Shown piece by piece: positions 30,164 through 36,618 of a DNA stretch of 64,000 nt (position 1 is the first letter of the stretch; every line of letters starts with the position of its first letter). The notes under the pieces are model-generated. The model searched no databases. It was not told the origin of the DNA and saw only the letters and a program-made list of their open reading frames with translations. The position numbers and the translations under genes were made by a program. Source of the stretch: Anaerolineaceae bacterium (GTDB lineage: Bacteria > Chloroflexota > Anaerolineae > Aggregatilineales > Phototrophicaceae); the NCBI GenBank assembly GCA_016124855.1, contig WGMX01000008.1:1-64000 (forward strand), in the 5' to 3' direction.

Positions 30164-31741
30164 CTATTTTTGAACATTCTTTTGGACAATTCGAAATCCA
30201 ATCGTCGCGTGATAGCAAAGCGGATCGAGATAATAATGGAAAGAGATTTGAGATCGCTGATACGCACTCACAAATGATCCTCCAAAAACTGCACGCTCGC
30301 CAACTAATGTAATATCGATTAATTCCTCGTTGGTGTCAGAATATTCACTTTGATCAGGCTTAGGCTTACTGTTTATGCACCATTCCCATACATTTCCAGC
30401 CATGTCATAAACATTGAAGGGGCTAATTCCATTACTATAACGCATGACAAGTGAGGTCATCTTTATTTCGCTCTCGCGAGTATTACAACGCGTCTTATCA
30501 AATGTATTTCCCCACGGGTATATTCGGTTATCATCACCACGTGCGGCTCGCTGCCACTCAAGTGCGGAGGGTAAGACAGCGGTGATATTCAGTTTTGAAC
30601 TTAACCATCTACAAAATGCAAGGGCATCAAACCAATTTACCATCTCGCGTGGACGTTCATCGCCTTTGAATCGTCCCGGTTTCGATTCCGGATTATTTAC
30701 GCGCCAGTTATACGCCTCGGGAGAATATTCCCACCACTGAGTATTCTTATATCCGTCTGCATCGTCGCAAAAAATCTGATATTGACTGTGGGTAACTGGA
30801 TACTTACTGATCTTGAATCCATCGACCCTGACTTTTCTTTGTTGTGCTTTTTGACTTTTATCAATTTCATCGACAAGAACGTAGCCGGCAGGTATATCAC
30901 ACCATTCTAATAGAGGCAAAAGAAAAGGGGGTCTATTATCCTGTTTGCGATCTACTACCTGAATTACGGATTGCTTTGATTCATCAGGTTTAGAGATTAA
31001 CTGGGCTAGCTCGTCGGGATCGTAGTCAGGGAAATCGCGTCTAAAGGCTTCAAATGCTTCTAGCCCCAACTTACGTGTGCGCGAAAGCCTTACAAGCTCT
31101 GCAATTTGCTTATATTCACGTTCCGCCTCACGCAGATAGGACAAACGCTCTAGCGCAGTTTCAGCCTCCTGTAGTAAAGCATCTAAATTGATGAAACGCG
31201 ATGTGAATCCGCTCTCTTTTGCCTGTTTGAGCAAGAAAACCGCTTGATCGAATTGACCATTTTCCATGGCTGCAGCAGCAACACTTATAACATTCGCAGG
31301 ATTAGTTGTCGGGGGTGCTACACGTTCGGACGCAATTGCAGACACTGGTAGGGCAGGGTGTTTGCGACGCTCAGCAATATATATTGAGTTTAGAAGGACT
31401 TTGACAGCTTCAATGGTTATTCCATTTGTTAAATCAACATATTGAGTATCTTTTAGGTTATCAGGCAAATTTACTTCGTCACGAATTAACACTGGCACAA
31501 TGTGCTTACCCAGACTTTGTGCCAATTCGAATTCCTTGCGACAATATTCTGAAGCAATGGAGTCAGGTGAGAGCAGGTAGACAAAGCTCTCACACCAGTC
31601 CAGCCTTCTTAATATTTCTTTCCACCAATTTTGCCCTGCATACAAACGTTGGTCGTACCAAGTTTCGTGTACGTCAAGTGTATCCACAATTTGGATACAA
31701 AATGGTTTATCAACGCGTGCATAACTTACGAAAATACGCAT
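30164..31741 (-). CDS. TIR domain protein with C-terminal FGE/sulfatase-modifying-factor domain
   Basis: TIR: RIFVSYARVDKPFC...FVYLLSPDSIASEYCRKEFELAQSLGKHIVPVLI. FGE-like: KISKYPVTHSQYQIFCDD...RPREMVNWFDALAFCRWLSSKL...LPSALEWQRAARG...YPWGNTFDKTRCNT...DMAGNVWEWCI...FGGSF...IGFRIV. Confidence 0.88.
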   Translation of the reverse strand: MRIFVSYARVDKPFCIQIVDTLDVHETWYDQRLYAGQNWWKEILRRLDWCESFVYLLSPDSIASEYCRKEFELAQSLGKHIVPVLIRDEVNLPDNLKDTQYVDLTNGITIEAVKVLLNSIYIAERRKHPALPVSAIASERVAPPTTNPANVISVAAAAMENGQFDQAVFLLKQAKESGFTSRFINLDALLQEAETALERLSYLREAEREYKQIAELVRLSRTRKLGLEAFEAFRRDFPDYDPDELAQLISKPDESKQSVIQVVDRKQDNRPPFLLPLLEWCDIPAGYVLVDEIDKSQKAQQRKVRVDGFKISKYPVTHSQYQIFCDDADGYKNTQWWEYSPEAYNWRVNNPESKPGRFKGDERPREMVNWFDALAFCRWLSSKLNITAVLPSALEWQRAARGDDNRIYPWGNTFDKTRCNTRESEIKMTSLVMRYSNGISPFNVYDMAGNVWEWCINSKPKPDQSEYSDTNEELIDITLVGERAVFGGSFVSAYQRSQISFHYYLDPLCYHATIGFRIVQKNVQK

Positions 31742-31782
31742 AAGAGTTTCTCGTTGGTGTTACAGAAAAAGGGTAAATGATG

Positions 31783-34700
31783 CTAATCGTGACTCGCTTG
31801 CCATTGCTCAACTGCAAGTTTGGCTTCGTCATTGTTAATCTGCTTAAGTATATCAACAATTACGTCACAAATCCTCTTTTGTTCCCAGTATGGTCCCGCA
31901 GAATCGGATAAGCTTGGAATTAGCGCAGATACCAATGTCGGATCTGGGTTCCGGCTTAGTCCATTTGCTGCCGCCCATCGAACATGTTCACTCGAGTCTT
32001 TGAGAGCGGTTAGCAGGTAGCGAGTAGCGATATCCATGTTTATTTTGCCTAGACTTTGAACAGCCGCTAACCTTACAAATTCTTCTGTGTCTGCGGCTGC
32101 TGCTTCCAGAGCAGATATAACTTGTGCTCCATCCAAATATCCAAGTGCTTCTGCTGCGGCTTCTCGCACTAAGGAATTAGCATCAGAAACAAGTTTAGCT
32201 ATGGCAATTGCTGCATTGTTGTCCTTGATTTCAACCAACGCTCGAATTGCGGCAATTCGAACCTTCCAATTTGAGTCAGCTAAGCGTTGAATCAAGTGTG
32301 GCACAACATGGACATTTCCAACCCATCCTAACGTTTCCACACCTGTCCACCGTATGACCCAATCGTTATCATTAAGTGTTTCAAGAATTTGGTTGATAAC
32401 TTTTAGGCTGGTATTACCACGAAGTCCCTTGACATAATCACGGAGCGTCTTGGCGGCGTTGCTGCTCGTATCCCACTTGCGACCCCGCAATTGAGCCAAT
32501 ATGCCAGCAACGTAAATGTCCTCTGAAGATCGCGTTGAATCTGCTCCTAAGGGAAACTGTTCCAGTTTATTTTCTGAGTCGCCATTGTGACCATTTGTCT
32601 GTGTCGTCAATCGCTGCTCTTTCGCGTTAATTAAGCGTGCCTTCACGATTTGTGACGAAGTAGTACTTCGCTCTTCGTATCCCGGCATATTCGATAACAA
32701 CTTAGTAACAATTTCATTCACGCTGGATTTACTTAATCTTGATTTAGACATATCGGCTAAACCTTCCTCTAAACGCGAAACTGCATCAGGGTTTGAATAT
32801 TTGGCAAGCCCTTCTAGGGCCTCAATTTTAACATCGACATCGTCTTCGTACGAGAAACTCAATAACAGATCGAACACATCTTCGGTTTGAAACTTTGATA
32901 ACGCCTCAATCACTAACCGGCGGGACAAAGGAGCTAATTGCTTCACAATTTGACTAAAGGATCCGGGTTCTTTAGATTGGATTTTCAGGAGGGCGTTAGT
33001 GGCAGCTTTGCGAACTCCTACATGTCGATGCTTTAGGCACTCGACGAGATATGGAGTAGCACAGACATCATTTAGCGTTGCTAGTGCAGCTGCCGCCTGT
33101 ATCACGACCGATGTGTTGCTGTCCTGAAGTACTTGAACTAAAGCAGGAACGCTAGCAGTATCGTTTAATTCTTTTATCGCCCAAATTGCATTTAGCCTAG
33201 TTTTAACTGCATCGGAATTCAGCATCTTAAATAAAGTAGCGAGGGAGTTTGAGCCGATTCGTTTTACGGCGTGTGATATTTTAGTTCGAGTATTTTCGTT
33301 GATTTCGGACAAAGACTCTGCTAGACCAGTCATTATCGAATGACCTAACTCTAGAAAAGTTGAATATGCATAAAGGCGAATGGGCCATTGGGCATTTCTC
33401 AAGACCTCAACAAAAATTGCATTGGCGGCGTTTGGGTCTAGCCCATAGAGTAATTTTGCAAAGCAGGTTCGAAAGTCTCCAATCTCGGCAAGGGCATCCA
33501 TATTCTTGTTGATTACATATGAATACGTGGAGCTGTCACTCAAACGAACGCCACTTGCGAAGCACTGCATTGCTAGTAATGGGTCTACATCGGCAATAGT
33601 TCTTAAGTGCTCTGCTGGCCTCTTCGTTAGATGCACCAAGGTAATAATCGACGTATCCCATCTTTGTGGAACACGACTAGAGTCTTTGGTCAGCATCAAA
33701 TGGGGTAAATTTGAAGGAATTCCATATTGGTCCAGTGCAATTGCAGCGAAATAATCTCGGAACACTTTTGTTGAGAAACGAACATTTTTTTCGCTAAGGA
33801 GCAGTAATCCACTTTCAATACACTCGGTAAGATGGGCTTCAGATTGTATATACTCTAACGTTTTTATGTAACTAATCTGTGATTTCTGTCGCTCTGTAAC
33901 AATAGCGGCAATTTTCGATAACGCGGTGTCAAAAGATAAGTTAGTGTTACTGTGATAATTTCCAAGCCTCCACAAATTGCCGATTAGATAACTATAGTAA
34001 TTTGCTATGCTTAGGCTTGAAAAATCAACATCAAGGGGATAGCTTACTGATGTTAAACTCATTGCAAATATCGGATTTTGCAAAAGGTATTTTAGCTGCG
34101 GATACGTATCGCATTTTTCGCAATTTAGCACATATTGAACAAAAGGGCGGTTCGAATATTTCGATAAAATGACCATGAACTGAGCCCAGTTAAACTCAGC
34201 GGCTTTAATCGCTAGTTCAACGTCATATAAGTTTTTGCGGGGCAACTCAGCGGTGGGATCAACCATAATCAATGGTGGGGCAGGGGAATTACTTTTCCAC
34301 CATGCCTTAAACTTATTCGCAAACGTCTTAGCCGTCATTTCTGCGTATTCGAAACCATATACATATATTGTCAAACTTATAGTTGTTTCTGTGTCGATCT
34401 GATATTCTTTATCGCCTAACTGAGCCACCAGCCATTCATCCCAAGGAATTTCCTCGTTCCACGTTTCTACGTCGAGCATGACGGGTAGGGCAGGTTTGTT
34501 ATCTGACGATATGTATAATTTGCGGGCTTTATCCGCCATAAAACTTGCCACTAATTGCCCATCTGAATAAGCGCAAATTACAATAGTAGATTGATTTCGT
34601 TGAACTATCTGCTCAAGATTATAGGTATTTGCTAGGTCAGACGCATCCAAGTGCAGACCCTTATCAAGATCAGAAATAGCGGAAAATTTCATTTCAGATA

Positions 34701-35220
34701 GCAGTGTTTGTATTGGGTTGCTGTAACTACTTGCACATCCGTAGTTCGTTATTTCGAGCAAATCCCACGCGAACTGTACCCGCTGCAGCTTTGCCTCTAG
34801 CCAATTGGTGTACTGTTCCAAATGTGTTTTGTTTGTTGCTTTAGGCACTTCTATCTGGGAAAGAATGCTTATTAGCTTTTGTATCCCTAAGGCGAACTGC
34901 GCTTTGTTGTCAGTTGTGAACTCTACTACCGTGTTAATCATCGCGTTTTCTGCCCAATCCGTAATAGATATGGGGCTAGAGAGCAGGGGAATTACCCGCG
35001 AGGTCGTGAATTGCTCAGCGAGATGTACATAGGCAGGGGCTTTAACAAATTCAGGCCTTAAAACCGCGATTATAGTGTCGCTTTTTGTCAGGCTCATGGT
35101 ATCAATAGCGTTGCACTGCAAGGCATATGATGTTAATTCAAAACCCGCATTTCGGAGTTGTGCAGCTAGATCTGCTGCGAAGAGCTTATCAATTGGATGA
35201 TAGCAGATATAAATAGGCAT
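31783..35220 (-). CDS. NLR-like protein: N-terminal TIR-like, degenerate NACHT-like core, C-terminal HEAT repeats
   Basis: 1145 aa. Residues 1-80 TIR-like; ~195-500 NACHT-like architecture (LKYLLQNPIFAMSL and FSTKVFRDYFAA) without a Walker A GxxxxGK[ST]; ~600 onward HEAT/PBS-lyase repeats. Confidence 0.7.
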   Translation of the reverse strand: MPIYICYHPIDKLFAADLAAQLRNAGFELTSYALQCNAIDTMSLTKSDTIIAVLRPEFVKAPAYVHLAEQFTTSRVIPLLSSPISITDWAENAMINTVVEFTTDNKAQFALGIQKLISILSQIEVPKATNKTHLEQYTNWLEAKLQRVQFAWDLLEITNYGCASSYSNPIQTLLSEMKFSAISDLDKGLHLDASDLANTYNLEQIVQRNQSTIVICAYSDGQLVASFMADKARKLYISSDNKPALPVMLDVETWNEEIPWDEWLVAQLGDKEYQIDTETTISLTIYVYGFEYAEMTAKTFANKFKAWWKSNSPAPPLIMVDPTAELPRKNLYDVELAIKAAEFNWAQFMVILSKYSNRPFVQYVLNCEKCDTYPQLKYLLQNPIFAMSLTSVSYPLDVDFSSLSIANYYSYLIGNLWRLGNYHSNTNLSFDTALSKIAAIVTERQKSQISYIKTLEYIQSEAHLTECIESGLLLLSEKNVRFSTKVFRDYFAAIALDQYGIPSNLPHLMLTKDSSRVPQRWDTSIITLVHLTKRPAEHLRTIADVDPLLAMQCFASGVRLSDSSTYSYVINKNMDALAEIGDFRTCFAKLLYGLDPNAANAIFVEVLRNAQWPIRLYAYSTFLELGHSIMTGLAESLSEINENTRTKISHAVKRIGSNSLATLFKMLNSDAVKTRLNAIWAIKELNDTASVPALVQVLQDSNTSVVIQAAAALATLNDVCATPYLVECLKHRHVGVRKAATNALLKIQSKEPGSFSQIVKQLAPLSRRLVIEALSKFQTEDVFDLLLSFSYEDDVDVKIEALEGLAKYSNPDAVSRLEEGLADMSKSRLSKSSVNEIVTKLLSNMPGYEERSTTSSQIVKARLINAKEQRLTTQTNGHNGDSENKLEQFPLGADSTRSSEDIYVAGILAQLRGRKWDTSSNAAKTLRDYVKGLRGNTSLKVINQILETLNDNDWVIRWTGVETLGWVGNVHVVPHLIQRLADSNWKVRIAAIRALVEIKDNNAAIAIAKLVSDANSLVREAAAEALGYLDGAQVISALEAAAADTEEFVRLAAVQSLGKINMDIATRYLLTALKDSSEHVRWAAANGLSRNPDPTLVSALIPSLSDSAGPYWEQKRICDVIVDILKQINNDEAKLAVEQWQASHD

Positions 35221-35376: not shown

Positions 35377-35466
35377 CAAAGTAATGTTAGACGTTTAGGT
35401 TTTCCCTTGCGTTACTCACTTTCTTGAGTGATGATTACTCAGAACTATTTAACAGAGGGTCTTTTC

Positions 35467-36618
35467 ATGAATAATCAGCGTGGCAGAACGCAATCAATGG
35501 AATTTAGACAACAAGAAGTTGGCTATGTAATGGAGCGATGGCGGGCGGGAGAATCTTGTTCGTTGGTTGGTGTTGGCAGTGTCGGCAAATCCAATCTGCT
35601 GCAACATCTATCAAATGAAACAGTTCAGTCCTTTTACATGAAGGATGTGGCCGGCGGCAAACCATTTAAAGCAATCATTATTGATCCAAGTATGTTAGGC
35701 CCTCTGTCAGACACTTCATCAGCAGATAACATCGCATTGCGATGCTGGTCTGGCTATGAGTTAATGATGCACAGACTATTCCTTGCATTCTATCCTTTTA
35801 GTAACCTTACAGCTGAAGACGCACGTATATTCTACGACACCTATCAAGCACTTCAGGACGGCACAAATCCACTATATGCCTATATGGGGCTGCGTTACTT
35901 TGAACTCGGCTTAGAAATATTTATGAAGCAAGGTGCTCATATCGTATTTATGTTTGACGAGTTCGAAGAAATGTTACGGCAGCTACCAGTAAAATTTTTC
36001 CTAACATTGCGCGGACTGCGGGATGCAAATAAAAGAGGGATTTCATATCTCACATTTACGCGATCCCCCTTACCTCAACTAATTAACGAACTAAATATAG
36101 AACCTTTGGCAATAGAGCCATTTGCTGAGTTATTTAACGACAACATTATCTACGTAGGACCGTACAATGAGGTCGACGCCAGAAACATGGTCTTAGATCT
36201 CATTAAGAGGAATAATCGAAAATACGAAACCTATGCCATAGATTTCTTGTTATGGGCAACGGGCCGGTACGCTGGAATAATGAGAGCGAGTTTTAGAGCG
36301 CTGGACACACTAAGTGCACTTGATGCAAACTCTGTGATGACTCGTAGTGAGCAGCTCGTTTACGAATTAGTAGCAAAACGTGCGGTGCGTGTCGAATGTG
36401 AGACGATCTGGAAAAGCCTAAGTGACGAAGAAAGAGCTATGTTGGTTGAATTTACGGGTAGTCATCCTAAAATCGATCCGAACCGCTATGAAGTACAACA
36501 AATCTTTGCTTCACTTCAGCAAAAGCAACTTCTAAAAGTTCAAGGGAATCGGGTACTTGTTGATCCACCTGTGTTTCAGGCATATATACGAAGTCTCCAA
36601 ACCGCAGAAAACAGGTAA
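35467..36618 (+). CDS. AAA+/STAND-like P-loop ATPase
   Basis: Walker A GVGSVGKSNLL; Walker B HIVFMFDEFEEM; C-terminal winged-helix-like segment. ORF opens at 35428; MNNQRG at 35467 is the likelier start. Confidence 0.8.
   Translation: MNNQRGRTQSMEFRQQEVGYVMERWRAGESCSLVGVGSVGKSNLLQHLSNETVQSFYMKDVAGGKPFKAIIIDPSMLGPLSDTSSADNIALRCWSGYELMMHRLFLAFYPFSNLTAEDARIFYDTYQALQDGTNPLYAYMGLRYFELGLEIFMKQGAHIVFMFDEFEEMLRQLPVKFFLTLRGLRDANKRGISYLTFTRSPLPQLINELNIEPLAIEPFAELFNDNIIYVGPYNEVDARNMVLDLIKRNNRKYETYAIDFLLWATGRYAGIMRASFRALDTLSALDANSVMTRSEQLVYELVAKRAVRVECETIWKSLSDEERAMLVEFTGSHPKIDPNRYEVQQIFASLQQKQLLKVQGNRVLVDPPVFQAYIRSLQTAENR

Follow-up and report, generated by a model that had tools for sequence, protein, structure and literature searches.

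Layout of the locus

The window analysed here is a 64,000-nucleotide stretch (positions 1 to 64,000 of contig WGMX01000008.1, from an Anaerolineaceae bacterium). On its reverse strand lies a two-gene operon, of which the first gene encodes a pseudo-NLR with TIR-like, NACHT-like and HEAT-repeat regions (hereafter the window protein) and the second a TIR-FGE protein (Table 1). A preliminary description had given the first gene as a 1145-residue reading frame with extensive HEAT repeats, and our re-examination, including a Pfam search, bears out its coordinates, its length and its repeats. The hallmarks of the distal NACHT region were also said to be kept, and we found both of them in place: LKYLLQNPIF at residues 376-385 and, aligned across homologues, FSTKVFRDYFAA.

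Table 1. Features of the operon and contigs of the two closest orthologues. Residue numbers refer to the encoded protein.
Feature	Position	Strand	Remarks
TIR-like/NACHT-like/HEAT protein (pseudo-NLR), 1145 aa	31783..35220	-	uninterrupted ORF
TIR-like domain, residues 1-125, catalytic Glu lost	34846..35220	-	TIR_2 20.9 bits, below cut-off; aligned with the intact TIRs of homologues
Former TIR catalytic motif APAYVHLAEQF, residues 61-71	35008..35040	-	Leu67 in the Glu column of relatives
NACHT-like module, residues 201-505	33706..34620	-	AF2 model of residues 1-560; Foldseek NOD2/NLRC4/NLRP3
Former P-loop CAYSDGQ, residues 216-222	34555..34575	-	GK[ST] here in 33/37 homologues
Former Walker B IYVYGFEYA, residues 285-293	34342..34368	-	Tyr instead of acidic residue; D/E in 34/37
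Retained NACHT-distal motif, residues 482-493	33742..33777	-	FSTKVFRDYFAA; aligned across homologues
HEAT-repeat region, residues 506-1145	31786..33705	-	HEAT_2 E=4e-52
Terminal HEAT block, residues 901-1140	31801..32520	-	includes GPYWEQKRICD; best-conserved part among the triple-loss orthologues
Intergenic gap of the operon, 41 bp	31742..31782	.	gaps -3 to 372 bp in homologous operons
TIR-FGE partner, 525 aa	30164..31741	-	TIR_2 77.0 bits, FGE-sulfatase 135.9 bits
Expected catalytic Glu70 of TIR-FGE (SEYCRKEF)	31532..31534	-	Glu in 38/38 TIR-FGE proteins
FGE-like domain of TIR-FGE (C-type lectin fold family)	30182..30931	-	Pfam FGE-sulfatase 281-519; PDB relatives
Orthologue L039 (genome G003)	contig of L127, JACDGI010000052.1
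Orthologue L040 (genome G015)	contig of L129, JAIUNI010000001.1

The N-terminal half of the window protein is poorly recognized by sequence profiles. TIR_2 gave a weak, sub-threshold match (the Pfam cut-off is 28 bits), and Pfam NACHT (PF05729) gave none at E<=1. Residues 1-125 align with intact TIRs, and the model's succession of strands and helices is compatible with a TIR; NACHT proteins dominated the Foldseek list. An AlphaFold2 model of residues 1-560 (mean pLDDT 83.3, pTM 0.88) had NOD2 (E=5e-9), NLRC4 and NLRP3 as its best solved matches. These matches point to a NACHT fold at residues 190-520, where the preliminary description had placed one, and support a confident prediction that this fold is kept despite the loss of the nucleotide motifs described below. 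The bacterial protein thus resembles NLR immune receptors of animals and plants. The alignment behind this model includes intact homologues that may pull it toward their fold; a second model, built from an alignment of the five divergent members only, scored lower (mean pLDDT 72.5, pTM 0.49) and has a NACHT core with the same strand and helix order as the first. A Foldseek search with the full-length model was uninformative on the TIR and NACHT regions because HEAT proteins swamped the list.

A link between the window protein and the neighboring TIR-FGE gene had also been suggested, and it is supported by conservation of the operon: a TIR-FGE gene lies directly downstream on the same strand, at gaps in the range given in Table 1, in 36 relatives, all from one Anaerolineae order (Chloroflexota). 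The reverse is not always true, since several TIR-FGE genes are solitary or sit at contig ends. Of 98 genomes in the family, 84 have a TIR-FGE homologue. In a class-wide sample of 298 genomes it was found in at least 11, every one of them in the window's order; the class-wide figure is a lower bound, as no more than a few candidates were scored in each genome. The window's own genome (G000) carries a second, solitary TIR-FGE gene (G000:C75:53724-55202; L100:3722-5212) that adjoins ParA-like and glycosyltransferase genes; G010 (L098) shows this context too, as does G013 (L099), where TIR-FGE is present in two tandem copies.

Catalytic formylglycine-generating enzymes have a cysteine at the position after GGSxx. 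In TIR-FGE proteins the corresponding residue of the FGE-like domain motif GGSFVSAYQRSQ (30164-31741) is Ser, Gly or similar rather than Cys, which suggests that this domain may be a binding domain only. FGE-type lectin-fold domains have been proposed as sensors in related systems (PMC10907252).

Loss of three catalytic motifs

Motifs were counted in 37 homologues with a complete N-terminus, the window protein included; one of them, L051, lies at a contig end, its downstream gene beyond the sequence. According to the preliminary description, the window protein lacks the TIR catalytic glutamate, a GxxxxGK[ST] P-loop and the Walker B acidic residue, and alignment upheld all three absences. The glutamate, replaced by Leu67 in APAYVHLAEQF, is present in 31 of the 37 and missing in the window protein, L039, L040, L044, L053 and L185. 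GK[ST] is found in 33 and missing in the window protein, where CAYSDGQ stands at the P-loop position, and in L039, L040 and L041. The Walker B acid, present in 34, is missing only in the window protein, L039 and L040 (Tyr, Tyr and His, respectively). Conservation of the P-loop loss in orthologues had been named as a check, and the two closest, L039 and L040, likewise have no P-loop; among the 37, only these two and the window protein have lost all three motifs. They also have in common an Asp near the old GK position. Sensor-1 Arg was dropped as an additional lost motif, since several homologues with an intact P-loop do not have it either.

In more distant relatives, mostly about 1250-1450 aa, the SxYCxxE TIR motif is clear, and so is a P-loop at the corresponding site. 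The intact TIR-NACHT-HEAT partners of the same order, represented by L134 (the same locus as L042, JACRPS010000011.1), share with the window protein its architecture, its operon partner and homology that runs end to end; in the pairwise alignment with L134, residues 3-558 are covered (E=5e-22). Unlike the window protein, they have all three motifs, and most of them are longer. Because the absent motifs line up with intact ones in relatives and the homology is end to end, the losses are real rather than the product of a misplaced alignment.

Two half-way forms belong to the same clade as the triple-loss orthologues: L041 has an intact TIR and a lost P-loop, and L044 has Gln for the TIR glutamate and keeps GKS. 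Ultrafast bootstrap support reached 100 both for the divergent clade of five members and for the three-member clade, and L041 grouped with L044 at 78; the count of independent losses hinges on this last, weakly supported grouping. Two further TIR-FGE partners, L053:7018-10404 and L185:4854-8408, are without the TIR glutamate and keep the P-loop, which suggests that TIR loss occurred several times.

The window protein might still be active through non-canonical residues, such as TIR Glu69, or through nucleotide binding without a P-loop. The window protein and L040 do have a glutamate two residues past the lost one, but L039 has Gly there, and none of the three orthologues has either the P-loop Lys or the Walker B acid; we consider such activity very improbable. 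Cover by an intact paralogue was rejected as well, since a search of three genomes (G000, G003 and G015) found no intact full-length copy elsewhere in them. A search of the whole G000 genome with the TIR-NACHT part of an intact homologue gave thirty-five matching stretches, and many of these are TIR domains of other proteins in this TIR-rich genome.

Inheritance and rates of change

The named relatives are metagenome-assembled genomes of Anaerolineae (Chloroflexota). All genomes are at draft stage, and contamination of the window's own is estimated at 9%. Whole-genome searches identified the two close full-length orthologues, which are 43% (L039) and 35% (L040) identical to the window protein (alignment A2). 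Both genomes have flanking genes in common with the window, and the TIR-FGE tree and the partner tree both group the three operons, indicating that these were vertically inherited. Spread this wide in the family, with synteny in two relatives, would be uncommon for a mobile defense locus. Among the neighbors is a gene for a divergent AAA-type ATPase (35428-36618, plus strand) with a P-loop-like GVGSVGKS and no Pfam match over the cut-off. Its product is 82% and 75% identical to its G003 and G015 counterparts, which serves as a background rate. We rejected it as a dedicated partner supplying the missing ATPase because relatives carry it as a widespread core gene, mostly away from the operon.

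The two genes of the operon have diverged at very different rates. Between the window and L039, identity is 98% in the TIR of TIR-FGE, 30% in the TIR-like domain, 30% in the NACHT-like module and 52% in the HEAT region, compared with 80%, 73%, 65% and 69% for the same four parts in an intact control pair (L042-L043). The corresponding dN values are 0.020, 0.76, 0.74 and 0.44 for the window and L039, and 0.134, 0.156, 0.27 and 0.23 for the control pair. Branch lengths summed on the fixed TIR-FGE tree follow suit, at 0.10, 3.76, 3.69 and 1.99 in the three-member clade and 0.37, 0.33, 0.53 and 0.45 in the control pair. In 60-residue blocks, three-way identity among the triple-loss orthologues is a near-random 4-7% at residues 181-300, around the old nucleotide site, and 47-57% at residues 901-1140.

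These rates would be expected if the N-terminal half were unneeded and eroding, with only the HEAT half at work, or if the whole gene were becoming a pseudogene: the TIR and NACHT regions have changed fastest, and the orthologues' identity near the old P-loop is about random. However, the frames are open in three species (1145, 1172 and 1145 codons) at saturated synonymous distance, and pN remains below pS in the TIR and NACHT regions of the window protein and L039 (0.47-0.48 versus 0.77-0.82), which argues for residual constraint. Furthermore, in the models the NACHT core still has its order of strands and helices, and the terminal HEAT block is strongly conserved. Decay is therefore an unlikely explanation, though one to be taken seriously.

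Alternatively, diversifying selection could be acting on the TIR and NACHT surfaces, driven for instance by phage inhibitors, and the protein could have sacrificed its activity as it turned into a decoy. The very high dN is confined to one gene of the operon, and inactive enzyme domains have been proposed as decoys in related conflict systems (PMC7159879). Family-wide presence and flanking genes shared with two relatives are, by contrast, unlike mobile defense loci. With pS saturated, no dN/dS can be given, so a direct test is prevented and relaxed constraint and diversifying selection are inseparable. We regard an arms race of this kind as distinctly unlikely.

A candidate platform for a separate TIR executor

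The operon resembles several known systems in part. Inactive STANDs are already known in bacteria, from conflict systems in which they have MoxR-vWA partners (PMC7159879, PMC8195603), and the window protein is akin to them: like iSTAND and iSTAND2 of the MoxR-vWA ternary systems, it has a STAND ATPase module with eroded nucleotide motifs, for which sensing has been proposed. It differs in having TIR and HEAT regions and in that the loss is confined to one clade with intact relatives. No MoxR or vWA gene was found among the neighbors at the locus, which were searched with Pfam or read, and membership in a MoxR-vWA ternary system was ruled out on these grounds. The NLR-related bNACHT proteins (bNACHT25; PMC12169576) share the predicted NACHT-fold core, but the window protein is without nucleotide motifs and is inherited as an operon with TIR-FGE, and its defense role is putative. 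Named PADLOC systems gave matches at the level of HEAT and TIR, none of them specific. We found no description of a TIR-NACHT-HEAT and TIR-FGE operon in the literature searched, which was limited to papers outside subscription.

We consider it probable that the window protein is a pseudo-enzymatic NLR, derived from an active TIR-NACHT-HEAT ancestor, that acts as a nucleotide-independent platform for the TIR-FGE executor. The argument for such a scaffold is that three orthologues share losses exceptional among 37 homologues while the TIR-FGE glutamate is invariant, that the operon is conserved, that dN is lopsided between its genes, and that the terminal HEAT block remains highly similar. It is weakened by the near-random identity at residues 181-300, which could also mean decay of an unneeded half. 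On the scaffold model, the residues needed to cleave NAD and to run the nucleotide switch would have been lost from the ancestor, while its fold, its HEAT platform and its operon with TIR-FGE were retained. The terminal HEAT block would then hold or position TIR-FGE, possibly with the help of heterotypic TIR-TIR contacts; a sensed signal would lead to release or assembly of TIR-FGE, whose intact TIR would carry out the NAD+ chemistry, perhaps in defense or cell death.

Plant RRS1/RPS4, a sensor and executor that associate as a pair (PMC8813719), offers an analogy for how such a division of labor might work rather than a class to which the operon belongs. Here the partner is a TIR-FGE protein without an NLR module, and the pairing is a putative one, suggested by operon conservation. 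More tentatively, the operon could represent a bacterial parallel to such plant pairs, born of the loss of both active sites, in which a nucleotide-independent pseudo-NLR uses its HEAT platform to steer TIR-FGE as a separate executor and is inherited vertically in one Chloroflexota lineage rather than serving as mobile phage defense.

Versions of one NLR-like protein that are intact, half-dead or fully dead all occur beside the same TIR partner, itself intact. This natural before-and-after series opens a standing question to direct test, namely what an NLR can still add when it has neither its ATP switch nor an effector of its own. If the scaffold model is correct, the catalytic sites of an NLR would be dispensable when the executor comes in trans.
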